In this document: positions 242 to 33,864 of the stretch, one piece after another | How positions within the stretch are numbered: position 1 is the first letter of the stretch | Layout of the letters: each line of letters begins with the position of its first letter | DNA from: an uncultured Rhodospirillaceae bacterium | GTDB taxonomy: Bacteria; Pseudomonadota; Alphaproteobacteria; Rhodospirillales; Magnetospirillaceae | Assembly: GCA_903901915.1 (NCBI GenBank) | Contig: CAIUSV010000030.1 | Location: forward strand, 1 to 37,669 | Direction: 5' to 3' | Length of the DNA: 37,669 nucleotides | Made by a program: the position numbers and the translations under genes | The notes under the pieces: generated by a model | Seen by the model: the letters and a program-made list of their open reading frames with translations, nothing else | Database searches by the model: none | What the model was told of the DNA's origin: nothing

Positions 242-2800
242 CTATTTCAAATAGTCCATCAGGCTGAGGCTCTGCACCTTGGCGAGGACCTGATAGCTCG
301 CCTGCAGGGCGTTGGAATCGGTCAGCAGATTGGTCGCCGCCGTGGTCGGGTCAATCTGTTCCATGTCGGTGATGCGGGCGTCGAGGAAGCCCATGAACAG
401 GGTATGCTTGGCGTTCTTGCCGGCAATGACCGCCTGGTTAAGCTCGATATTCTGCTTCAGCGTGTCGATGTCGCCCGCCTGTTCGGCTCCGAAGGGGGGA
501 TTGCCCGAGGCCGGCGCGCTGAGGGCGTCATTCAGCAGGAAAATGGCACTCTCGACCCGGCCCCGGTTGTTGTCCAGGCCGCCGGCGGTACCGAAACTTC
601 CCTGGGCGAGCAGCCCCATGGCGCGGATCGCCTTCTCGAAGGCGGGGTCCGAGGCATAGATGCCCACGTCCAACGTGCGATTGGTATCGATGCGTTGCTG
701 AATCTGAAGCGTATCACCCTTGTACCACGAGGTGGCGGAGATGGACGCCGTCGTCGTGGTCTCCGCCGTCATCGCCGGGACGCTTTCGATATCGATGTTG
801 GTGCCGTCGCTGGCCACCACCTTGTAGACACCGTCGTTGACGCCACTGGTGCTGCCGAGGGTAAAGACCGAACCGACCGCCGGAATGAAATCCGGCGACT
901 TGCCGAACGCGCCGGTGCCAAGCGCGACGGTGCCGATGCTGGTGCCGGCGACACCGCCCCCCGCCGCCAGCGGGGTGCTGAGCCCCAGGGCGGTGGCCAG
1001 GGTACCACCGACGGCAACATCGTCGGCACTGCCGGCGACACCGCCGACGGTGGTGACCGCCAGATGCCCGGTGGCGTCCACGGCGCTCATGAATGAGACC
1101 GGAGAGATCGTCGAGGCGTTCTTAAGGAAGCCTTGCAGATCGTTCATGGTCGATGCCGCGGTGACGGTGAAGGTGTCGGTCCCCGAACCGTTGGTCAGGG
1201 TCAGCGTCTGCCCGATGGCGATGCCGAGCGACACGCCGTTGGTCTTGTTGGTCAGATCGGTCAGCAGATGGAACTGGTCCCCCGACCCGGACCCGTCCAC
1301 CGTGACGGTGGTGCCGACGGTGCCGTTGCCGGGCACCGACGAGGTAATCCGTTCCTGGCCGACGCCGGAGCCGGGCGTAAAGGCGATCGAGCCGGTGTGG
1401 TTCGGCAGGATCGAGGTGGTCTTGGGACTGGCGGCGGTGCCGCTCTGATACGACAGGGTCACGTCGGTCCGGCCGGTCTGGGGCAGGAACTTGGAGACCC
1501 GCAGCGCGTCGCCGTTGATGGCGAAGGTCAGGGTGTTGGCGGTCTGGCCCGTCACCGTATAGGTGCCGTTGTGATTGGCCGACCCGCCGAGGGTGATGGT
1601 GTCGCCGACGGCGATGCCGGCGAAATCGGCGGTCCCGGCGGCGGTGATGGTCACCGTGGTGTTGTTGTTGGCCGCCGACGGCGTCGCGGTCATGGTCACC
1701 GTACCGGCGGTCAGGGGAACCGCGGTGGTGGCGGCCAGATGGGTGAACGACATGGTCACCGGCGTGGTCCCGGCCGTCTGGGTGATCGCCTCCGAGGTGG
1801 CCTGGCCGGTATCGCTGGCGATCTCGACCACGCCGTTGACGTTGCTGACCACCTTGTAGGCGCCATCCCAGGAAGCGCCGGTGGACCCGTTGATGGTGAA
1901 TCGGGTCCCCACCGTCAGGTTGGCCAGCGAGCCGGCCGTGGTCGGCGTGATCGCCATGTTGCCGTTGGCCCGGAAGGCGAAGTTCAGGTCGCCGGTGGCC
2001 GCCGGCAGGATCGCGGTGGGGGTCGCGCCGTATTGAATGGTCGGCGAACCCGACCCGAGGCCGTTGGTCTCGGCCAGCGCGGAGCCGCCGACGTTCATGA
2101 GGGCGTGGCTGTGAACCACGAAGGTCTTGTTGTTGGAAAGGCTGTTGCCAACCGTGATGTTGGTCCCCGCCGGAAACTGGGTCAGTCCGGTGGCGTTGGC
2201 GGCGCGGATCAGCCCGCTGGTGGGGCTGAAGGTCAGCTTGGCGGTATCCTGGCTGGTGACGTTGGCTTCCAGCAACTGGGCCCCCCGGGTCGTCGGCCAG
2301 GTCCGGTTGCTGCCGTCGAAGAGCGACTGGAACTGGGAAAGGCTGCTGGCCGGAAGCTGCATCGGCTCGGTGTTCACCCGGCCGCCGGAAAACAGGTACT
2401 GGCCGTTGTTGCTGGTATAAAGCGCCGACTGGATTTCCTGCATCGCCTGGAAGGCGAAGGTCTGGAACTGGGTGATGCTCTGCTGATCGGTGGGCGCGGA
2501 GGAATAGAACGACACCGCCTGATCGCGGAAATTCTTGATGGTGGTCTGAATTTCGGTCAGCGCCGCCGAAGCCGCGCTCAATTTTGTGTCCACCGCCTTG
2601 TTGTTGCTGATGAATTGGGCCGCCTGCGCCTTCTCGTTCTCGAAATTGATCGCGGCATTGGCATCGGAGGCGATGCCAATGTATTCCTGCGACTTGAGAT
2701 GCGTCGTGTTTTGCACCTGCTCGATGTTCATCCTGCCCTGGATGTCCAAAATCCGAGCGATGTAGGCGTTGTTGGCTCCCAGCGTGCCGATGCGCGTCAT
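242..2800 (-). CDS. flgL: Flagellar hook-associated protein 3 (FlgL), greatly enlarged
   Basis: Forms the hook-filament junction next to the flagellin filament. The first ~150 residues (MTRIGTLGANNAYIARILDIQ..., GQYLFSGG near residue 135) and the last ~90 residues, ending in a helical segment, match the flagellin-like D0/D1 ends of FlgL. FlgL proteins are usually about 300-400 aa; this one is 852 aa because of a Gly/Thr/Ala-rich middle. Inside the middle are three copies of a ~30-residue module (about residues 295-330, 396-430 and 640-675) and a 136-residue segment (492-627) that recurs in the neighbouring FlgK. The start has GGGAGG just upstream, overlapping the flgK stop region, so flgL is the last gene of the flgI-flgJ-flgN-flgK-flgL run. 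The insert probably forms surface-exposed D2/D3-type domains. Confidence 0.9.
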   Translation of the reverse strand: MTRIGTLGANNAYIARILDIQGRMNIEQVQNTTHLKSQEYIGIASDANAAINFENEKAQAAQFISNNKAVDTKLSAASAALTEIQTTIKNFRDQAVSFYSSAPTDQQSITQFQTFAFQAMQEIQSALYTSNNGQYLFSGGRVNTEPMQLPASSLSQFQSLFDGSNRTWPTTRGAQLLEANVTSQDTAKLTFSPTSGLIRAANATGLTQFPAGTNITVGNSLSNNKTFVVHSHALMNVGGSALAETNGLGSGSPTIQYGATPTAILPAATGDLNFAFRANGNMAITPTTAGSLANLTVGTRFTINGSTGASWDGAYKVVSNVNGVVEIASDTGQATSEAITQTAGTTPVTMSFTHLAATTAVPLTAGTVTMTATPSAANNNTTVTITAAGTADFAGIAVGDTITLGGSANHNGTYTVTGQTANTLTFAINGDALRVSKFLPQTGRTDVTLSYQSGTAASPKTTSILPNHTGSIAFTPGSGVGQERITSSVPGNGTVGTTVTVDGSGSGDQFHLLTDLTNKTNGVSLGIAIGQTLTLTNGSGTDTFTVTAASTMNDLQGFLKNASTISPVSFMSAVDATGHLAVTTVGGVAGSADDVAVGGTLATALGLSTPLAAGGGVAGTSIGTVALGTGAFGKSPDFIPAVGSVFTLGSTSGVNDGVYKVVASDGTNIDIESVPAMTAETTTTASISATSWYKGDTLQIQQRIDTNRTLDVGIYASDPAFEKAIRAMGLLAQGSFGTAGGLDNNRGRVESAIFLLNDALSAPASGNPPFGAEQAGDIDTLKQNIELNQAVIAGKNAKHTLFMGFLDARITDMEQIDPTTAATNLLTDSNALQASYQVLAKVQSLSLMDYLK
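920..1327 (-). repeat. Insert module shared with flgK (flgL copy)
   Basis: Codes for FlgL residues 492-627. It begins NGTVGTTVTVDG, passes through GQTLTLTNGSG and ends ...GTSIGTVAL. The partner copy is at 4399-4812 in flgK. In the best stretch (1188-1271 against 4673-4756) I count about 72 identical bases of 84 by eye. The protein resembles the repeated beta-rich 'IN'-type inserts found in flagellar axial proteins; that family link is inference. Confidence 0.85.
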
Positions 2801-2811
2801 GATCGGCCTCC

Positions 2812-5800
2812 CTAGTGGATAATGTTGATCAGCGAGTCGAGCATCTGCGACAGGGTCGAGATCACCTTGGCCGAGGCGGAATAGGCCTGCTGGAAGTTGA
2901 TCATATTCGACACCTCTTCGTCGAGGTTTACGCCGCTGAAGGAGGTGAACTGCTTGTCGAGCGCTTGGCCCAGCGTGGTCTCGTAGTCGAGTTGGTCCTT
3001 GGCGTGCGAGGCATTGGTCGATACCACGCCGATGATGGCGGCGCCGTACTCGGCGATGGAATAGCTGCCTCCGGCGATGTCGCCGGCCCCCCCCATCGCG
3101 ATCTTGCCGGTCATCGCCGCGCTTATCTGCAACGCCGTCGTGTTGTCGCCCTCGGACAGGAAGTATTTGCCCAGGTCGGAATTGTACTGCATGGCGCCAC
3201 GGCTCAACAAGGACGGAGACCCTTTAAGGTCGCTGCGAACCTCGATATTGCCGGCGGTGCGGCAGGAGGCGGCGTGGAAGCCGAGATCGGTGATCAGGCT
3301 GCCCGGAGGGGTCAGGGTGTCGGGAGTGGCGCCGATGAACAGCTCGCGGTCGGCGGTCTGGCGCAGCCGCAAGCGATAGCCCGACCCCTCGGGCACCACC
3401 GTGGCCTGAACGATGTGCGCCTGCTGTAGTCCGAGCGTGTTGCTGAGGTTCGACGACCCGATGGTGCCGCCGACCACATCCACCGTCAACGGCGTGCCCC
3501 GGCTGTCCCATATCCGCAATTGATAATTGTTGGGGCCATTCTGCACCACCTTGGCCTGAACCGAGCCGCCGACATTGTCGATGGCGGCGGCGATGTCGGT
3601 CAGGCTGGTGGTGGTGCCGGACGGCAAGGTGATCGGAAAGCCCGAAATGGTGCCGTTGGCATCCGAGATCGAGATGGTGGCGTTGGACGTCATGGTCAGG
3701 CCGGTACCAGTCAGCAGCGACGAATCCACCGTCTGGGTCTGGGCGTTGATCAAATTGGCCATGGTTGCCAGCGACGCCCCCGCCGGAATGCTGATGGCGT
3801 TGCCGATCTGACCCGAGGAATCGAGCAGACGGATGGTGCGGACCGTCGAGGTGGTGGTGCTGAGCGGCAAGATATTGGAATCGGCGATCGAGTTGGGCAC
3901 CGCCTTGGCGAAAACGTCATTCAATCCGAAGAAGTTGGCCAGGCCGCTGGCCGTCTGGTCCGCCTTGCCGTCGCCATCCACATCGAAATTGACCCGCGCG
4001 TCGCTGACCGCGCTGCCGTCGGCGGTGGCGGACTGGTCGCGCAGGGCAATCGACACCGAGCTATTGCCGGTATTGATCACGAATTTGCCCGAGGTCAGCG
4101 ATGCCGTGGCGTTGGTCAGGGCGTTGCCCTGATAGCTCTGGGCCTTCATCCAGTTCTGGATCTTGGCGGCGATGTCGGTCAGCGTCACTCCGGGCGGTGA
4201 CGGCGTCGTCGAGATGTCCAGCGCGGTCGGATTGCCGGAGGCATCGTTATAGGCGGTACTCGACAAGATGGTACGCAATGTGGTGCTGGCCAGTTGATTG
4301 CCGGTGGTGTCGAACATGGCGATGGTGGTGTCGTCGTTGCCGCTCAGCCAGATCGTCTGGGCCTTGGCCGCCAGGGTGACCGGGATCACCGAGGACGCCA
4401 GCGCGGTGGAGCCGATCTTGGTGCCGCCGGCACCGCCACCGGCCGCCAGCGTGGTACCGAGGCCGAGGGCGGTGGCAAGCGCGTTGCCGCCGCTGCCGCT
4501 GATGGTGACGTCATTGGCGGGAGTGGCGCCGCCGACGGTGGTGATCGCCAAATGCCCCGATGAATCGATCGCGGTATTGAATCCCACCGCGCCGAGAGTC
4601 TGGGCATGGATGAAGGTCTCCAGCGAACTCAGGGTCGAACCGGCGCCGACGGTGAAGGTGGCCGAGCCGGAGCCGTTGGTCAGGGTCAGGGTCTGCCCCA
4701 CCGTGATGCCGAGCGAAGCGCCCGTGGTCTTGTTGATCAGACTGGTCAGCAGATGGGTCGAGTCGGCGGCGGCCGAGCCGTCGGCGGTCACGCTGGTGCC
4801 GACGGTGCCATTGGAGGAAATCGCCACCGCGTTGAGGGTGGGGTTGTTGGGATCGGTAAACTGGCGGCTGCCGCTCAGCACCGACTGCATGGTCGGGAAC
4901 GTGGTTCCCCGGTTGGCGGCCAGGTTGACGGTGTCCTTGAGCTTGCTGGCCAGTTCATCCAACTGGGCCTGAAGGTTGGGCAGGACGGTGTCGCGCATCC
5001 CCACCAGCGCGCTCAGCTGCCCGCCGGCGATGTCCGAGGTGATGTCGGCGGTGGGGTCGCCGTTGAGATAGATATTGCCGAAATTGCCGCCGGCCTTGGT
5101 CATCCACGGATCGGTGATGGTGGTGGCGAAATGGGACATCACCGCCGCCACCTTGTCGACCAGAACCTTGCCCGACTTGCTGTAGACGCCGATCGAGCCG
5201 TCGCCCCTCGGGAAATACTGGATATCCAAATACTTGGACAACCCGGTCAGGGCGGTGTCGCGCTTGTCTTGCAAGTCGCCGACATCGGCGCCGATGGCCC
5301 CGTTGCGTACGATCTTCTGGTTCAGGTCATAGATGTTGGCGAGTTGGCTGTTGATCTGCCCCACCGTGTCCTGGATGCCCTTGTCCGCCTGTAGCCGCAG
5401 GTTCTGCAACTGCGAGGTCATCTGCTGGAACTGGCTGGCGGTATCCAGGGCGGACTGCACCGCCGCCGACTGGAAGGCCGGGGTGTTGACCTGCGGCGCC
5501 AAGGCCTCGAACGCCGACTGAAGCGACTGCATCTGATGGGCGATGGAATTCTGGTCGCCGACCTGGCCGAACAGGTCCGAGATCTGCGGATAATAGGTCT
5601 GGGTGGTATCGAGCGCATTCTGGATCGAGGTCTGCTGGCGGATCTGCGACATCAGGCCTTCGTCGACCGTCCGCACCAGCGCGCCCTGCTGGACGCCGGC
5701 GCCGATACCGGCCACCACCACCGATTCCGGCGTCATCACCTTGCGGACGAAGCCCGGGGTGTTGACGTTGACGATATTCTGGGAAATGACGTCCAGGCCC

Positions 5801-5856
5801 TTCTGGTTCGTCAGCAGCCCCGATACCGCTGCGTTGAGACCGAGTGTGAGGCTCAT
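2812..5856 (-). CDS. flgK: Flagellar hook-associated protein 1 (FlgK), enlarged
   Basis: First protein of the hook-filament junction, exported through the flagellar type III apparatus. The N-terminus (LGLNAAVSGLLTNQKGLDVISQN, then NVNTPGFVRK) is the classic rod/hook-type start. The C-terminus (SGVNLDEEVSNMINFQQAYSASAKVIST... ending near MLDSLINIIH) is the classic FlgK end. At 1014 aa it is well above the usual 450-700 aa. Residues 349-486 are the module shared with FlgL, and further beta-rich inserts follow to about residue 850. GGGAGAA precedes the ATG. It lies 26 bases downstream of the flgN-like gene and 11 bases upstream of flgL, so co-transcription is likely. Confidence 0.95.
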   Translation of the reverse strand: MSLTLGLNAAVSGLLTNQKGLDVISQNIVNVNTPGFVRKVMTPESVVVAGIGAGVQQGALVRTVDEGLMSQIRQQTSIQNALDTTQTYYPQISDLFGQVGDQNSIAHQMQSLQSAFEALAPQVNTPAFQSAAVQSALDTASQFQQMTSQLQNLRLQADKGIQDTVGQINSQLANIYDLNQKIVRNGAIGADVGDLQDKRDTALTGLSKYLDIQYFPRGDGSIGVYSKSGKVLVDKVAAVMSHFATTITDPWMTKAGGNFGNIYLNGDPTADITSDIAGGQLSALVGMRDTVLPNLQAQLDELASKLKDTVNLAANRGTTFPTMQSVLSGSRQFTDPNNPTLNAVAISSNGTVGTSVTADGSAAADSTHLLTSLINKTTGASLGITVGQTLTLTNGSGSATFTVGAGSTLSSLETFIHAQTLGAVGFNTAIDSSGHLAITTVGGATPANDVTISGSGGNALATALGLGTTLAAGGGAGGTKIGSTALASSVIPVTLAAKAQTIWLSGNDDTTIAMFDTTGNQLASTTLRTILSSTAYNDASGNPTALDISTTPSPPGVTLTDIAAKIQNWMKAQSYQGNALTNATASLTSGKFVINTGNSSVSIALRDQSATADGSAVSDARVNFDVDGDGKADQTASGLANFFGLNDVFAKAVPNSIADSNILPLSTTTSTVRTIRLLDSSGQIGNAISIPAGASLATMANLINAQTQTVDSSLLTGTGLTMTSNATISISDANGTISGFPITLPSGTTTSLTDIAAAIDNVGGSVQAKVVQNGPNNYQLRIWDSRGTPLTVDVVGGTIGSSNLSNTLGLQQAHIVQATVVPEGSGYRLRLRQTADRELFIGATPDTLTPPGSLITDLGFHAASCRTAGNIEVRSDLKGSPSLLSRGAMQYNSDLGKYFLSEGDNTTALQISAAMTGKIAMGGAGDIAGGSYSIAEYGAAIIGVVSTNASHAKDQLDYETTLGQALDKQFTSFSGVNLDEEVSNMINFQQAYSASAKVISTLSQMLDSLINIIH
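4399..4812 (-). repeat. Insert module shared with flgL (flgK copy)
   Basis: Codes for FlgK residues 349-486, starting NGTVGTSVTADG and ending ...GTKIGSTAL. It aligns along its whole length with FlgL residues 492-627, with only a two-codon difference in total length (138 against 136 codons). The DNA is alike as well as the protein, pointing to duplication or gene conversion between adjacent genes. Confidence 0.85.
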
Positions 5857-5882: not shown

Positions 5883-6365
5883 TTAGAGCGACTTATTGAA
5901 AGACAGCGCCGCGCCGGGGCCACCGGTCGAATCGAAGGTGCCGGCGCGGCCGTAATTGGTATTGCTGGTGGCATTGGCCTTGGCGGTCTGCACGATGATG
6001 TCCATCACCCGCTGATAGGCCTCCATCTCGGCCCGCAGCCGACGGGAATTGACGGTCATCAGCTCGTGGAGCCGAAGGCCGATCGCCGCCAGCGCCTCGC
6101 GCTGTTCCGGCTCCAGCGCCTCGGCCAGTTCCGGATGATCGACCAGCGGCTGTACCGCGCGCTCGTAGAGCTTGGCCAGGGCGGCCTTGTTCTCGGCCAG
6201 CACCTTGACGGTTTCCGGGTCGTGGCTGGCCAGGGCCTCGTTCTCGATCTCCAGCAGATCGCACATGTGGGTGCAGGCGAAGACGAGATCGTCATAGGCG
6301 ATCACCGAACCGCCCCCCAGGGTGTCCTCGTCGCCGGTTTCGTTTTCCGAGATGGTGTCGAACAT
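5883..6365 (-). CDS. FlgN-like flagellar export chaperone
   Basis: A 160-aa acidic, mostly helical protein between flgJ and flgK. FlgN is the cytoplasmic chaperone of the hook-associated proteins FlgK and FlgL, and both of those genes lie immediately downstream. Visible features are a long alpha-helical region (about residues 25-130) rich in Leu, Glu and Ala, and a C-terminal tail ending ALSFNKSL that I associate with alphaproteobacterial FlgN-type proteins. One base separates its ATG from the flgJ stop. Assignment rests on position, size and helical character, not on a sharp motif. Confidence 0.7.
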   Translation of the reverse strand: MFDTISENETGDEDTLGGGSVIAYDDLVFACTHMCDLLEIENEALASHDPETVKVLAENKAALAKLYERAVQPLVDHPELAEALEPEQREALAAIGLRLHELMTVNSRRLRAEMEAYQRVMDIIVQTAKANATSNTNYGRAGTFDSTGGPGAALSFNKSL

Positions 6366-6366
6366 G

Positions 6367-6687
6367 TCACTGCACCTCCTGGTGCTTCAAAAGCATCTTC
6401 TGCACGGCGCTGCCGATGCCGATGCCGTTGCCGCGGTTGGCGACCATTTTGCCGTATTCGTCGGTCAGCAGGGACCGGAACATTTCCTCGCCGCTGCCAC
6501 CGCCGAAGATGCCGTCGGTCTTGATGCCCTCGAACATGTGCTCGAACATCTGGGCGACGAAGTGGGCCTCGAACTGGCGTCCGGCCTTGGCGGCGGCCGC
6601 CTGACTGGCGGCGGCGGCGACCGGCGGCGCCTTTCGTTCGAGCAGGGACGGATCGGCCGAAGCCGGGACGGAGAAGGTGGAGGCCAT
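6367..6687 (-). CDS. flgJ: Rod-binding protein FlgJ, N-terminal domain only
   Basis: A 106-aa protein matching the rod-binding half of FlgJ: FEAHFVAQMFEHMFEG, then GEEMFRSLLTDEYGKMVA and a GNGIGIGSAVQKML-type end. In enteric bacteria FlgJ carries a C-terminal muramidase that opens peptidoglycan for the rod; here that domain is absent, as is usual in alphaproteobacteria, where a separate lytic enzyme does the job. It starts two bases after the flgI stop and is followed after one base by the flgN-like gene, so it is part of the same operon. Confidence 0.88.
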   Translation of the reverse strand: MASTFSVPASADPSLLERKAPPVAAAASQAAAAKAGRQFEAHFVAQMFEHMFEGIKTDGIFGGGSGEEMFRSLLTDEYGKMVANRGNGIGIGSAVQKMLLKHQEVQ

Positions 6688-6689
6688 GG

Positions 6690-7865
6690 CTAGAGCACCT
6701 CGAGATCGGCTTGCAAGGCGCCGGCGGCCTTGATCGCCTGAAGGATGGTGATGAGATCGCGCGGGCCGATGCCAAGGCTGTTCAGCCCCTCGACCAGTTC
6801 CTGCAACGTGACCCTGTGCTGCACCACCGCAAGCTTGTTGCCGGCGCCTTCATCGACCTGGATATCGGAACGCTGGACGGTTTCGGTGGTACCGGTGGTC
6901 GAGAACGGCGACGGCTGCGACACCTGCGGCGTCTCGGTGATGCGGATGGTCAGCTGGCCCTGGGCGATGGCCACCGTGCTGATGCGGACGTTCTCGCCCA
7001 TCACGATGGTGCCCGAAACCTCGTCGATGACGACGCGGGCCATCTGGTCGGGCTCGACCCGCAATTGCTCGACATCGGTCAGCAGGCCGACGACGTTGTC
7101 GCGGTAGGTCGGCGGCACCACGATCTGAACCGTACCCGGATCGATCGGCCGCGCCATGTCGCCGCCGAGGAAGGAATTGACCGCCTGGGCGATACGCCGC
7201 GACGTGGTGAAGTCGGGATTGCGCAGACTGACCTTGACCGCTTCCAGATGCGCCATCTCGAACGGCAGCTCGCGCTCGACGATGGCCCCGTTGGCGATAC
7301 GGCCGGCGGTGGGAACGCCCTTGGTGACCGAGGAGCCCGAGGCGCCCGAGGCGGTGAAGCTGCCGGTGGCGACCTGACCCTGGCCGACGGCGTAGACCTC
7401 GCCATCGGCGCCGATCAGCGGCGTGACCAGCAAGGTGCCGCCGCGCAGGTCCTTGGCGTCGCCCATGGCCGACACGTTGGTGTCGATGCGGGTGCCCTGG
7501 CGGGCGAAGGGCGGCAGCATGGCGGTGACCATGACGGCGGCAACGTTCTTCGGGCTGACCGAGGTGATGGCGCCGGTCTTGTCACGGATGTTGACGCCGA
7601 GACGCTCCAGCATGCCGACCAGGCTTTCCTTGGTGAACGGCGCGTTGGTCAGCGAGTCGCCGGTGCCGTTGAGGCCGACCACCAGGCCGTACCCCACCAG
7701 CATGTTGTCGCGCACCCCCTCGAAATCGGCGATGTCCTTGATGCGCGAGGCGCCGAAGGCGTCGGCCGGCATCAGCCCGATGGTTGCCGCCACCAGCGAA
7801 GCGGCGAGCAGAAAGGCACGCAGCGGAGCGGCGAAGGAGGCGGCGGCGACGTCGATGCGGGTCAT
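6690..7865 (-). CDS. flgI: Flagellar P-ring protein FlgI
   Basis: Forms the peptidoglycan-level bushing of the flagellar rod. The mature start SRIKDIADFEGVRDNMLVGYG and the GLNGTGDSLTN motif are diagnostic. The chosen ATG gives 391 aa with a Sec signal peptide of about 39 residues (a hydrophobic core FLLAASLVAATIGLM, cleavage probably after DAFGA), as expected for a periplasmic protein. AGGGTGA lies upstream of this ATG. An alternative in-frame ATG at 7886 would add seven residues before the signal peptide. The last 12 codons specify AAGALQADLEVL. A sigma-54-type promoter lies at 7914-7929 and could drive flgI through flgL. Confidence 0.95.
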   Translation of the reverse strand: MTRIDVAAASFAAPLRAFLLAASLVAATIGLMPADAFGASRIKDIADFEGVRDNMLVGYGLVVGLNGTGDSLTNAPFTKESLVGMLERLGVNIRDKTGAITSVSPKNVAAVMVTAMLPPFARQGTRIDTNVSAMGDAKDLRGGTLLVTPLIGADGEVYAVGQGQVATGSFTASGASGSSVTKGVPTAGRIANGAIVERELPFEMAHLEAVKVSLRNPDFTTSRRIAQAVNSFLGGDMARPIDPGTVQIVVPPTYRDNVVGLLTDVEQLRVEPDQMARVVIDEVSGTIVMGENVRISTVAIAQGQLTIRITETPQVSQPSPFSTTGTTETVQRSDIQVDEGAGNKLAVVQHRVTLQELVEGLNSLGIGPRDLITILQAIKAAGALQADLEVL

Positions 7866-7913
7866 GATGGTTTCACCCTGGGGCATGCGGTCATGGTCTT
7901 TCGCGACCTTCTT

Positions 7914-7929
7914 TGCGAAACTCGTGCCA
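7914..7929 (-). promoter_or_regulatory. Sigma-54 promoter upstream of flgI
   Basis: The minus strand reads TGGCACGAGTTTCGCA. The TGGCACG box is perfect, the GG and GC doublets are exactly 10 bases apart, and the -12 box differs from TTGCA by one base. The predicted start lies about 12 bases downstream, leaving a leader of about 35-40 bases before the flgI ATG at 7865. Sigma-54 control of hook, ring and hook-associated genes is established in alphaproteobacteria such as Caulobacter. Confidence 0.75.
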
Positions 7930-8153
7930 ACCGGCCAACCCGCCAAATACAAGGTGTTCACGACTAACAGCCGGACGCCCAAGGCACCCGCCGGGCACTT
8001 CCGTCCCTCCCCGCCCGGCAAAACCTGCCCAGTCGCCCGGACACGAGACGCCCCCCGTTACCGACGGACATGCCACGGCAACGCCCAGTTGCCGTATCAC
8101 TTTCATGGAAATTGAAGACTCTGATGGGACGGCGGGACGCGGCTAGCGAAGCC

Positions 8154-27986: not shown

Positions 27987-30518
27987 TTGCCCTCCATTAA
28001 CGCCATTGACCGCATCGTCCAGAAGACGCTGCTCAGTTGCGGAGCCGACGCCACCATTCTCGAAGCCGCCCAAAGCATGGCCGCGGCCCATTGTAGTTCC
28101 ATCCTCATCGTCGAGAACGGCAAACCGGTCGGCATCTGGACGGAACATGACGCCCTGGCCATCGACATCGATGATCCCCAAGCCTTCAGCCAGCCGATCG
28201 CCACGGTGATGAGCGCGCCGATCAAGACCATTTCGCGCCACACCAGCATCGGCGACGCCGGCATGCGCTTCAAACTCGACGGCGTCCGCCACTTCGTCGT
28301 GGTCGATGACGACGGCAACGCCATGGGTATCGTCAGCCAGAGTGACGTCATCCTTCACCATGGCGTCGAGCACTATCTGGTGCTGCGCCATGTACGTACG
28401 GCCATCAGCCGTCCGATGGTGCTGATCCCCCCCTCGGTAAGCCCAAGCGACGCGGTCGCGCGCATGCACGCGGGACGGGCCGACGCCGCCGTGGTCCTGG
28501 GCGATGGCCACGACGGTCCCGGCATCATCACCGAACGCGACGTCGTTCGCCTGATCGCCGGCCAGAGGCCCGCGGCGGCCACGGTCGGGGAATTGGCCAG
28601 CCGGCCACTGATCGCCATCCGCGACGACGACTCGCTGCTGGCGGCGCGCAACCTGCTGGAAGAAAAGGGCATCCGCCACATCGTCGTGATCGATGCCGAC
28701 GGCGAACTGGTGGGGCTGTTGTCGTTTTCCGACATCCTGGCGACGCTGCAATACGAATACGTCCATCGCCTGGACGAGGCGCTGCGCGAACGTGACGAAG
28801 CGCTGCTGCGCTCGCGCAAGGACCTCAGCCTAGCCCGCAGGGTGATCGAGGCGTCGCTGGACGGCATCATGATCGTCGGGGCCGACGCCAAGGTCGAGTT
28901 CGTCAACCCCGCCTTCACCCAGATGACCGGCTACGCCCCGGAAGACATCATCGGCCAGAACCCGCGGGTGCTCAAATCCGGCCGCCACGACGCCGCCTTC
29001 TATCAATCCATGTTCGACACCCTGGCCCGCCAGGACTACTGGCAGGGCGAGATCTGGAACCGCCGCCGGAATGGCGAAATCTTTCCCGAATGGCTGACCA
29101 TCAACGTCATCCGCGAGGATGACGGCGCCATTTCCCAGTACGCCGCCATCTTCAGCGACATCACCGAGCGCAAGAAGACCGAGGAGCGGATCAAGAACCT
29201 GGCCTATTTCGACGTCCTGACCGGCCTGCCCAACCGCCGTCTCTTCACCGACCGCCTGCAGTTGGCCATCGCCAACGCCCATCGCCACGGCCACCTGATG
29301 GCGATCATGTTTCTCGATCTCGATCTGTTCAAGCGGATCAACGACTCGCTGGGCCACGGTGTCGGCGATCAGGTCCTGGTGGAGACCGCCACCCGCGTCG
29401 GCCACTGCGTGCGCGAAGGCGATACGGTGGCCCGTCTGGGCGGCGACGAGTTCACCGTCCTGCTGCCCGAGATCGACCATGTCGAGGATGCCGCCAAGCT
29501 GGCGGAACGGGTGATTTCCCATGTCAAGCAGCCGTTCTTGATCGGTGACCACGAACTCTACGTCACCACCTCGATCGGCATCGCCGTCTATCCCGCCGAC
29601 GGCACCTCGGTGGAATCGCTGATCAAGAACGCCGATACCGCCATGTACCGGGCCAAGGATCTGGGACGCAACAGCTTCCAGCTCTACACCCCGGCCATGA
29701 ACGCCCTGTCGTTCGAGCGCCTGTCCATGGAGGCCAGCCTGCGCCACGCCCTGGTGCGCGACGAGTTCCGGCTGGCCTATCAGGTCAAGGTCGATCTGGT
29801 CAGCGGCCACATGTCCGGCGTCGAGGCACTGGTGCGCTGGCACCATCCCGAACTCGGCCTGGTGTCGCCGGTCGATTTCATCCCACTGGCCGAAAACATG
29901 GGCGTCATCTCCGACATCGGCGAATGGGTGCTGACGGCAGCCTGCCGCCAATGCAAGCACTGGCATGACCTGGGGCTGCCGCCGGTACGCATCGCCGTCA
30001 ATGTCTCGGCGTTGCAGTTCCGCGAGACCGACATGCCGGCGGTGGTCGCCCGCGCGCTGAAGGAAACCGGTCTGGCGCCCCAGTTCCTGGAACTGGAACT
30101 GACCGAGACCGTGCTGATGCAGCGGGTCGACGACGTGGTCCAGGTGCTGAAGGAACTGCGGACCATGGGATGCCGCATCTCCATCGACGACTTCGGCACC
30201 GGCTATTCCAGCCTCAGCTACCTCAAGCGCATGCCCATCGACGCGCTGAAGATCGACCGCTCGTTCGTCAACGACATCTTCGGCGAGGATTCCCAGGTCA
30301 CCGAGGAAGGCGCCGAGATCGTCTCGACCATCATCAATCTGGCCCACAACCTCAAGCTCAAGGCCATCGCCGAAGGCGTCGAGACCGCCGAACAGGCCGC
30401 CTTCCTGCGCTCGAAGGGCTGTGACGAGGTTCAGGGCTTCCTGATCAGCCGGCCGGTCTCGGGCGAGGACCTGATCAGCCTGTTCGACCGCAACCTGCTG
30501 CCGGGCGCGGCGCCTTAG
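27987..30518 (+). CDS. CBS-PAS-GGDEF-EAL c-di-GMP enzyme
   Basis: 843 aa. Four CBS motifs in two pairs (about residues 5-130 and 135-265), a PAS domain (284-400), GGDEF (410-575) and EAL (585-835). The cyclase active site GGDEF is at 485-489 with an intact RxxD inhibitory site (REGD) five residues before it. EALVRW starts at 613, and DDFGTGYSSLSYLKR is intact, so both synthesis and hydrolysis of c-di-GMP look possible. CBS pairs usually bind adenine nucleotides, suggesting energy sensing. The start is TTG after AGGACGG; later ATGs would cut the first CBS motif. No membrane segment. Confidence 0.93.
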   Translation: MPSINAIDRIVQKTLLSCGADATILEAAQSMAAAHCSSILIVENGKPVGIWTEHDALAIDIDDPQAFSQPIATVMSAPIKTISRHTSIGDAGMRFKLDGVRHFVVVDDDGNAMGIVSQSDVILHHGVEHYLVLRHVRTAISRPMVLIPPSVSPSDAVARMHAGRADAAVVLGDGHDGPGIITERDVVRLIAGQRPAAATVGELASRPLIAIRDDDSLLAARNLLEEKGIRHIVVIDADGELVGLLSFSDILATLQYEYVHRLDEALRERDEALLRSRKDLSLARRVIEASLDGIMIVGADAKVEFVNPAFTQMTGYAPEDIIGQNPRVLKSGRHDAAFYQSMFDTLARQDYWQGEIWNRRRNGEIFPEWLTINVIREDDGAISQYAAIFSDITERKKTEERIKNLAYFDVLTGLPNRRLFTDRLQLAIANAHRHGHLMAIMFLDLDLFKRINDSLGHGVGDQVLVETATRVGHCVREGDTVARLGGDEFTVLLPEIDHVEDAAKLAERVISHVKQPFLIGDHELYVTTSIGIAVYPADGTSVESLIKNADTAMYRAKDLGRNSFQLYTPAMNALSFERLSMEASLRHALVRDEFRLAYQVKVDLVSGHMSGVEALVRWHHPELGLVSPVDFIPLAENMGVISDIGEWVLTAACRQCKHWHDLGLPPVRIAVNVSALQFRETDMPAVVARALKETGLAPQFLELELTETVLMQRVDDVVQVLKELRTMGCRISIDDFGTGYSSLSYLKRMPIDALKIDRSFVNDIFGEDSQVTEEGAEIVSTIINLAHNLKLKAIAEGVETAEQAAFLRSKGCDEVQGFLISRPVSGEDLISLFDRNLLPGAAP

Positions 30519-32565: not shown

Positions 32566-33864
32566 ATGGCACCGCTGACGACAAAGCACTCCTTGGGACG
32601 GCGGCTGGCTCTTCGGCTGGGCCTCGGCGGCATAGCCATCGCCATCGTCCTGGGCGGCGGATTGTTCTGGCACGAGATCGAGCGGATCGACGACACCTTC
32701 GTCGACGAAGCGGTGGCGCAAGCCGCGCAATTATCGCTGCGCCTGCCCGAACGGTTGGATACCACCACCGCCCCGCAGGTGAAGCAGGCGTTGGAGGACT
32801 TCCTGCGCGAAAATCGCCACCTCGAATCGTCCCATTTCGCCGGGACCGAAATCTATGGCCTCGATCACGCCTCGATCGCCGAGGCAACCTCGCCCGACGA
32901 CGAGGCATCGGAAAAAATCATCGACCGGACTCGTCATCCCTATCCGGCCCCCGACGACAACTGGTACCTGAAACATACCGTCGATGGCGAAGTCTACCTT
33001 CAGGTCGTCACCTGGCTGACGGGACGGGACGGCAAGCCGATCGGCTATTTCGAGGGAATCTACCGGGTTTCCGCCGCCCGTATCGCCGAAGCGACCAGCG
33101 ACGGCGTGCGCGCCACCTTGCTGGTGATCCTGGCGGTACTGGCCACCACCGCCCTGCTGTATCCCATCATCATCCAGCTCAATCGCGGTCTGGTCGCGGG
33201 CGCGCGCGCGCTGCTGGCCGCCAACCTCGGCGCCATCGAGGTGCTGGGCAGCGCCATCGCCAAGCGCGACAGCGACACCAACAGTCATAATTACCGTGTC
33301 ACCTTGTACGCGCTGGGACTGGCCGAAGCGGTGGGCCTCCCCCCCGAGGGCATCCGCAGCCTGATCAAGGGGGCCTTCCTTCACGATGTCGGCAAGTTGG
33401 CGATTCCGGATTCCGTGCTGCTGAAGCCGGGCAAGCTCGACGATGGGGAATTCACGGTGATGAAGACCCACGTCAACCACGGTCTCGACGTGGTCGAGCG
33501 GTTCGAGTGGTTGCAAGACGCCGCCGATGTGGTTGGTTGCCACCACGAGAAGTTCGACGGCAGCGGCTATACCGCCGGCCTGGCCGGCGAGCAGATCCCG
33601 CTCACGGCTCGCATATTCGCAATTGCCGACGTGTTCGACGCCCTGACCTCGAAGCGGCCCTACAAGGCGGCACTGCCGGTGGACGAAGCCACCGCCATCA
33701 TGGCCGCCGCGCGCGGCAGCCATTTCGATCCGGCCATTCTCGACGTCTTCTTCACCATGGCGGGTTCACTGTACGGGCAGTTCGGCGGCCGCGAGGATTC
33801 CGGCCTGGAACACACCCTGCGCGAGCGGACATTGCGCTATTTCGAGGAAGCCCTGACCCGCTGA
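32566..33864 (+). CDS. Membrane HD-GYP-type phosphodiesterase
   Basis: 432 aa. TM1 (about 12-35) and TM2 (about 183-205) bracket an extracytoplasmic sensor region (36-182) of no recognised family. The catalytic domain has HD at 273-274 in LHDVGKLAIPD, THVNHG, then HHEKFDGSGYT at 326-336 and DVFDALTSKRPYK. These are the metal and substrate residues of c-di-GMP phosphodiesterases; the signature tripeptide is GYT in place of GYP. Predicted to hydrolyse c-di-GMP. It follows the coiled-coil membrane gene by five bases and is convergent with the LOG-family gene, one base apart. Confidence 0.93.
   Translation: MAPLTTKHSLGRRLALRLGLGGIAIAIVLGGGLFWHEIERIDDTFVDEAVAQAAQLSLRLPERLDTTTAPQVKQALEDFLRENRHLESSHFAGTEIYGLDHASIAEATSPDDEASEKIIDRTRHPYPAPDDNWYLKHTVDGEVYLQVVTWLTGRDGKPIGYFEGIYRVSAARIAEATSDGVRATLLVILAVLATTALLYPIIIQLNRGLVAGARALLAANLGAIEVLGSAIAKRDSDTNSHNYRVTLYALGLAEAVGLPPEGIRSLIKGAFLHDVGKLAIPDSVLLKPGKLDDGEFTVMKTHVNHGLDVVERFEWLQDAADVVGCHHEKFDGSGYTAGLAGEQIPLTARIFAIADVFDALTSKRPYKAALPVDEATAIMAAARGSHFDPAILDVFFTMAGSLYGQFGGREDSGLEHTLRERTLRYFEEALTR

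Follow-up and report, generated by a model that had tools for sequence, protein, structure and literature searches.

Why do two neighbouring genes for hook-associated proteins carry what appears to be the same insert, where did this insert come from, and does it bring the two proteins into contact? These questions are raised by a contig of 37,669 nucleotides from an uncultured Rhodospirillaceae bacterium (CAIUSV010000030.1), the entire stretch that was analyzed and that we refer to as the window. Its minus strand encodes a run of flagellar genes in the order flgI, rod-binding protein, flgN, flgK and flgL: the P-ring protein gene flgI (6690-8021; PF02119, E 5.7e-139), the gene for the rod-binding protein (6367-6687; PF10135, E 6.4e-11), a FlgN-like chaperone gene upstream of flgK (5883-6365; PF05130, E 1.5e-6, with 29.2 bits barely missing the cut-off of 30.5), flgK itself (2812-5856, 1014 amino acids), and flgL (242-2800, 852 amino acids). 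FlgK is identified by matches above the curated cut-offs to both FlgK_D1 (E 3.4e-40) and TIGR02492 (E 9.4e-87), and the rod-type ends are present. FlgL matches Flagellin_C (E 3e-4), Flagellin_N (E 0.006) and the flagell_flgL model TIGR02550 (E 6.6e-15), all below the curated cut-offs; the gene adjoins flgK and has orthologs throughout the genus set (17 of 17 genomes), which consists of the source genome, denoted G000, and 16 others.

Several other features of the region can be recorded here. FlgL contains weak internal repeats of about 35-45 residues, of the type VGxxFTIxGSxxxxDGxYKVVS, in segments that were chosen by eye at residues of about 198-230, 283-329, 385-428 and 641-674. The repeat pairs r1-r2, r1-r3 and r0-r2 scored above 500 of 500 shuffles and r2-r3 above 490 of 500, with no excess over shuffles for r0-r1 and r0-r3; the shared insert lies between the third and the fourth of these repeats. 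Antisense to flgL, there is an open frame of 560 codons (1133-2815, plus strand) that, in this G+C-rich DNA, is probably spurious. More than 20 kb away from the flagellar genes, the window encodes a CBS-PAS-GGDEF-EAL protein (27987-30518) and an HD-domain protein (32566-33864), perhaps, involved in cyclic-di-GMP signaling.

The initial annotation of this DNA proposed that FlgL and FlgK share a colinear module of about 136 codons (FlgL residues 492-627, FlgK residues 349-486), and this proposal is borne out. Alignment combined with comparison across the genus places the module at residues 491-628 of FlgL (917-1330, minus strand) and at residues 348-489 of FlgK (4390-4815, minus strand), that is, about 140 residues in both proteins. 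The local alignment of FlgK with FlgL scores 433, against a maximum of 153 among 200 shuffled sequences, and BLASTP reports a match of 59% over 144 columns with an E value of 6e-39. Small and hydroxyl residues are abundant in both proteins (S+T 21 and 23% overall), as would be expected if the resemblance were due to chance, low complexity or shared composition; however, this interpretation is refuted by the alignment score, the BLASTP E value, and the precision of the insertion borders.

The similarity extends to the DNA. When aligned by codons, the two copies show 60% amino acid identity and 286 matches in 408 bases (70%), and the best-matching stretch of 84 bases (1188-1271 on the FlgL side and 4673-4756 on the FlgK side, both on the minus strand) contains exactly 72 identities, the number that had been estimated by eye. 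The same codon is used at 58 of the 82 identical degenerate residues, compared with the 42.6 predicted by codon usage (z 3.5). Of the 183 bases with which the module begins, 140 are identical, whereas 2000 redraws from the shared residues and codon usage gave 126.6 +/- 4.5 (P 0.0015), and a best 84-base score of at least 72 was reached in the same redraws with P 0.0035. Thus, shared residues and codon bias do not account for all of the identity, and the excess at the DNA level is real, if modest.

Comparison within the genus shows that the module is a clean insertion in both proteins with a patchy presence, in agreement with the initial claim that ordinary FlgK and FlgL lack it. The FlgK module is missing in 15 of the 16 other genomes, the exception being G012, and the FlgL module is missing at residues of about 490-636 in all 16. 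In 12 of the 16 relatives, FlgK aligns with residues 1-343 and picks up again at 489-499; in G003, G005 and G015, which form a distant group, it aligns with residues 1-338 and picks up again at about 500. In the FlgL proteins of the 16 relatives, an ITSS-like stretch joins the next domain directly, without the module. The FlgK of G012 aligns with that of G000 from end to end, module included, and the same genome has an intact flgL, encoding 714 amino acids, that lacks the module. Accordingly, a strong match between FlgK and FlgL of the same genome was found in G000 alone (1 of 17), with the next best at E 0.027. The distant group, for which the flagellar loci are L077 (G005), L076 (G003) and L078 (G015), has strongly divergent FlgK and FlgL (37-50% identity, depending on the region); its FlgL proteins contain two tandem IN-like domains, and at least one such domain is present in a flagellin.

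Across the order, a three-row profile of the module (A1) matched in 6 of 317 genomes at E <=0.001, the source genome included. The matches beyond G000 and G012 are remote relatives (E 3e-8 to 6e-5), namely, the FlgL proteins of G003, G005, G015 and G021 and one flagellin of G003. No third copy is recognizable in the source genome itself (4.1 Mb), where the next matches are at E 0.24 and E 0.07, the latter in a reading frame that, on inspection, seems to be spurious.

To place the module among known domains, we used a twelve-row family profile (A2) that combines the module with these relatives. Among 385 genomes of the class, the source genome excluded, all 4 matches at E <=1e-4 are in flagellar proteins (3 flagellins and 1 FlgK), and so are all 11 matches at E <=0.001 among 398 genomes of the phylum (9 flagellins and 2 FliD), 6 of the 11 coming from a single genus. 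In 55 genomes of the family, there were 18 matches at E <=0.001, of which 10 are the seed rows themselves; the other 8 comprise 2 in FlgL (one protein), 2 in flagellin, 2 in FlgK, and 2 in proteins without a recognized identity. Altogether, 21 of the 23 non-seed matches lie in the outer regions of flagellar axial proteins, or 20 of 22 after the HMMER composition correction, under which the match in the FlgK of G005 vanishes. Pfam was run on ten of the hosts and confirmed eight as flagellar (L094, L095, L097, L098, L103, L104, L106 and L117); the others were assigned by eye from the protein ends and the FlgK of G005 by its place. Two matches to the family, L116:751-1914 in G030 (E 2.4e-9) and L115:3-1790 in G143 (E 1.4e-9), are in proteins with no recognized flagellar domain and unconvincing Pfam results.

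In four of the ten hosts tested with Pfam, the A2 match coincides with an above-threshold match to Flagellin_IN (PF07196): residues 239-316 for A2 and 239-290 for PF07196 in L098, 91-192 and 135-191 in L103, 105-200 and 141-198 in L106, and 361-420 and 354-393 in L094. A flagellin of L075 has three successive A2 matches, the second of which (255-373) encompasses a PF07196 match (296-342) under the cut-off; in the flagellar hosts L095, L097, L104 and L117, PF07196 was not found at E <=0.01. The AlphaFold2 model of the module, built from a three-row alignment (pLDDT 75, pTM 0.74), has a predicted strand-strand-helix-strand-strand core. In a fold search with this model, 18 of the 19 best among 66 PDB matches are, by title, FliD, FlgK, flagellin or their complexes, all of them weak (best E 0.042, query TM 0.22-0.41), and the single PDB sequence match is at E 1.8. 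Judging by the profiles, the module is not a new type of domain but kin of the outer domains of axial proteins and of Flagellin_IN, sharing with the latter the profile overlap, the host proteins and the predicted core. It differs from Flagellin_IN in that neither window protein matches PF07196 directly at E <=1 and in that FlgK and FlgL carry the copies at sites that lack such a domain in the relatives in the genus. The tandem IN-like pair in the FlgL of G003, G005, G015, G021 and G023 belongs to the same domain family; in the first four of these genomes, its identity to the window module is about 21-37%, but it consists of two domains in a row and, in G003, G005 and G015, starts near FlgL residue 308 rather than at 491.

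The explanation that we consider probable is that the module is a lineage-specific extra outer domain that was copied between the neighboring genes, decorates the junction between hook and filament, and is dispensable for assembly; in this explanation, we infer which gene was copied into the other, that the module lies at the surface, and what it does. In this view, flagellin, FliD, FlgK and FlgL have a beta-rich outer domain in common, of the kind whose core is captured by Pfam as the flagellin hook IN motif, and the module would be a diverged version of it that is specific to the lineage. FlgK would have received a copy right after the helical D1 region (residue 343), and the copy at about residue 490 of FlgL would have arisen, most simply, via recombination between the adjacent flgK and flgL genes, with no clear sign that this happened after the species of the genus had split. 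In the assembled flagellum, both rings at the hook-filament junction would bear the module as an additional exposed domain, which might serve for decoration, for spacing, or as an antigenic or glycan surface, and assembly would not need it.

The timing is where the earlier reading of this locus has to change. The copies had been described as looking recent or homogenized by gene conversion, and the 72 identities in 84 bases, the excess of shared codons, and the lowest synonymous divergence among the three module pairs are all in line with recent duplication or ongoing conversion between flgK and flgL. Nevertheless, the synonymous divergence between the two copies of G000 (dS by the NG86 method, with 90% bootstrap intervals) is 0.59 (0.44-0.77), compared with 0.73 (0.53-0.99) between the FlgK modules of G000 and G012 and 0.90 (0.66-1.16) between the FlgL module of G000 and the FlgK module of G012, the intervals overlapping. 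The value for the two copies is just under the range of nine comparisons of the FlgK flanks with three other species (0.63-1.14), close to the level of orthologs; hence the copies would be about as old as the species splits or slightly younger. Furthermore, no conversion-like tract was detected between the G000 copies: the longest run of informative sites that unite them is 4 (permutation P 0.79). For sites at which both FlgK copies agree against FlgL, the run is 7 (P 0.056). The longest identical run, 17 bases, is no longer than that between the FlgK copies of G000 and G012, which also is 17 bases, and the best 84-base score of these two FlgK copies, 68, approaches the 72 of the G000 pair. 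We therefore regard a recent or conversion-driven origin as very unlikely, and the impression of such a duplicate is corrected by these results.

The direction and the history of copying are a more evenly matched matter. In the tree of the FlgL flanks, G012 groups with six other genomes apart from G000 (support 100/100; 87/80 for FlgK), and a clade of G000 and G012 is rejected by the flanks of both FlgL (AU p 1.2e-7) and FlgK (p 0.002); FlgI does not reject it (AU p 0.37), with low signal and two partial rows. Given the rejection by the FlgL and FlgK flanks, losses or a transfer are needed as well. The FlgK modules of G000 and G012 are 70% identical, similar to the flanks (71% before and 65% after), and are inserted at the identical site, which fits the presence of the module in an ancestral FlgK followed by losses. 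Transfer of the module between lineages is possible; no recombination tract of raised identity around the module that is shared by G000 and G012 was seen when windows of FlgK were compared with 11 relatives. Such a history could take the form of an old pair, in which the module was present in the FlgK, and perhaps the FlgL, of the ancestor of a group of 14 genomes and was lost several times, or of separate gains, in which each of the two genes obtained it on its own, the donor being a third gene (a flagellin, for example) or, via transfer, another strain. This alternative draws support from the fact that two lineages, non-sisters in the FlgK and FlgL trees, share the insertion site in FlgK, and from the module relatives that other species carry in flagellin and FlgL. 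The FlgL copy is more distant from the two FlgK copies (61 and 59% identity) than these are from each other, and, taken alone, the amino acid identities (60% for FlgK-FlgL against 70% for the two FlgK copies) do not favor copying from FlgK to FlgL within the lineage. When remote rows are included, the tree of the module pairs the FlgL copy with the FlgK copy of G012 (93/91), although with a module this short and an outgroup this remote, its rooting is not to be trusted. Against an old pair or separate gains stand the several exact losses or transfers that they require, the lack of a close copy in a third gene of the source genome, and the synonymous sites, by which the two G000 copies are nearest (normalized excess of shared codons 0.39, against 0.26 and -0.06 for the other pairs), subject to the overlap of the dS intervals. 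The synonymous sites thus lean, not decisively, toward an origin of the FlgL copy in the G000 line, and the amino acid tree leans away from it; an old pair or separate gains deserve serious consideration, although we tend toward copying between the adjacent genes.

Other potential sources of the module gave little. The native outer region of FlgK (residues 495-860), a candidate source, yielded a weak stretch with hhalign (probability 9, E 0.004), and A2 matched the native FlgK outer region at E 0.05 in G000 and E 0.004 in G012. As for a viral origin, a scan of viral contigs produced 43 pattern matches and zero relatives, the best match in a viral fold library was at E 0.18, and PHROGs gave no match to the window proteins at E <=0.1.

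How the two copies might be arranged on the junction can be gauged from published structures. In Salmonella, 11 FlgK subunits and 11 FlgL subunits make up two consecutive layers, with exposed D2 domains (PMC12221982), and in Shewanella, FlgL D2 and FlgK D3 take no part in the ring linkages (PMC11839096); the two papers name the FlgL domains differently. Because such domains are exposed in Salmonella and lie outside the linkages in Shewanella, an added outer domain, and with it the module, most likely projects from the ring. The full-length model of FlgK (pLDDT 35) is useless for the surface position of the module. The composition of the FlgK module, with 31% S+T, 2 K/R, 5 D/E and zero C, W or Y in 142 residues, is Ser/Thr-rich and charge-poor, which fits a secreted surface domain; that it is glycosylated is only a guess.

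Alternatively, the modules of FlgK and FlgL might be in contact, either from one ring to the next or laterally in a single ring, and rigidify or seal the junction, the second copy having been selected for binding the first. The stacking of the FlgK and FlgL layers in Salmonella is compatible with such an arrangement, the matched pair is confined to G000 among the 17 genomes, and a quasi-homotypic contact between the D2 domains of FlgK and FlgL has been proposed for Burkholderia pseudomallei (PMC6155364), so that the idea of a collar is not new as such. In that system, similar outer domains are expected on the junction proteins; the similarity of the D2 domains is, however, a structural inference of those authors, whereas the window module is an additional domain and a duplicate at the sequence level. 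The arrangement is at odds with the position of FlgL D2 and FlgK D3 outside the linkages in Shewanella and with the different places of insertion, after the D1 region in FlgK and, in FlgL, amid weak outer-region beta repeats. In addition, G012 retains the FlgK copy next to an intact FlgL without the module, which implies that the FlgK copy is independent of a matching copy in FlgL. A homotypic collar is not needed to explain the modules, and we consider contact between them unlikely; that the second copy was fixed because the modules bind across the FlgK and FlgL rings, forming a putative interlocked collar specific to this bacterium, seems doubtful indeed. If the copies were in contact, they would provide a simple example of an interface built by copying the domain of a partner into its neighbor.

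An extra outer domain that decorates the junction, the explanation that we favor, has precedents. The D3 domain of B. pseudomallei FlgK and the extra outer domains of Campylobacter FlgE are species-specific, like the module, and the fold of the former resembles that of FlgK D2; the part of this account that was accessible mentions no copy in FlgL, whereas the module has one (PMC5691160). Flagellinolysin, a metallopeptidase within the hypervariable region of flagellin, likewise is inserted where an axial protein is exposed but is enzymatic and resides in flagellin (PMC5595980); the module had no enzyme match in the Pfam and PDB sequence searches made. In the accessible open-licence literature, we recognized no earlier description of this module. 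The locus would present a small, clear case in which one type of outer domain was added, lost and copied between adjacent genes while the assembly core remained unchanged and, as it stands, is a tidy instance of the known variability of outer domains.
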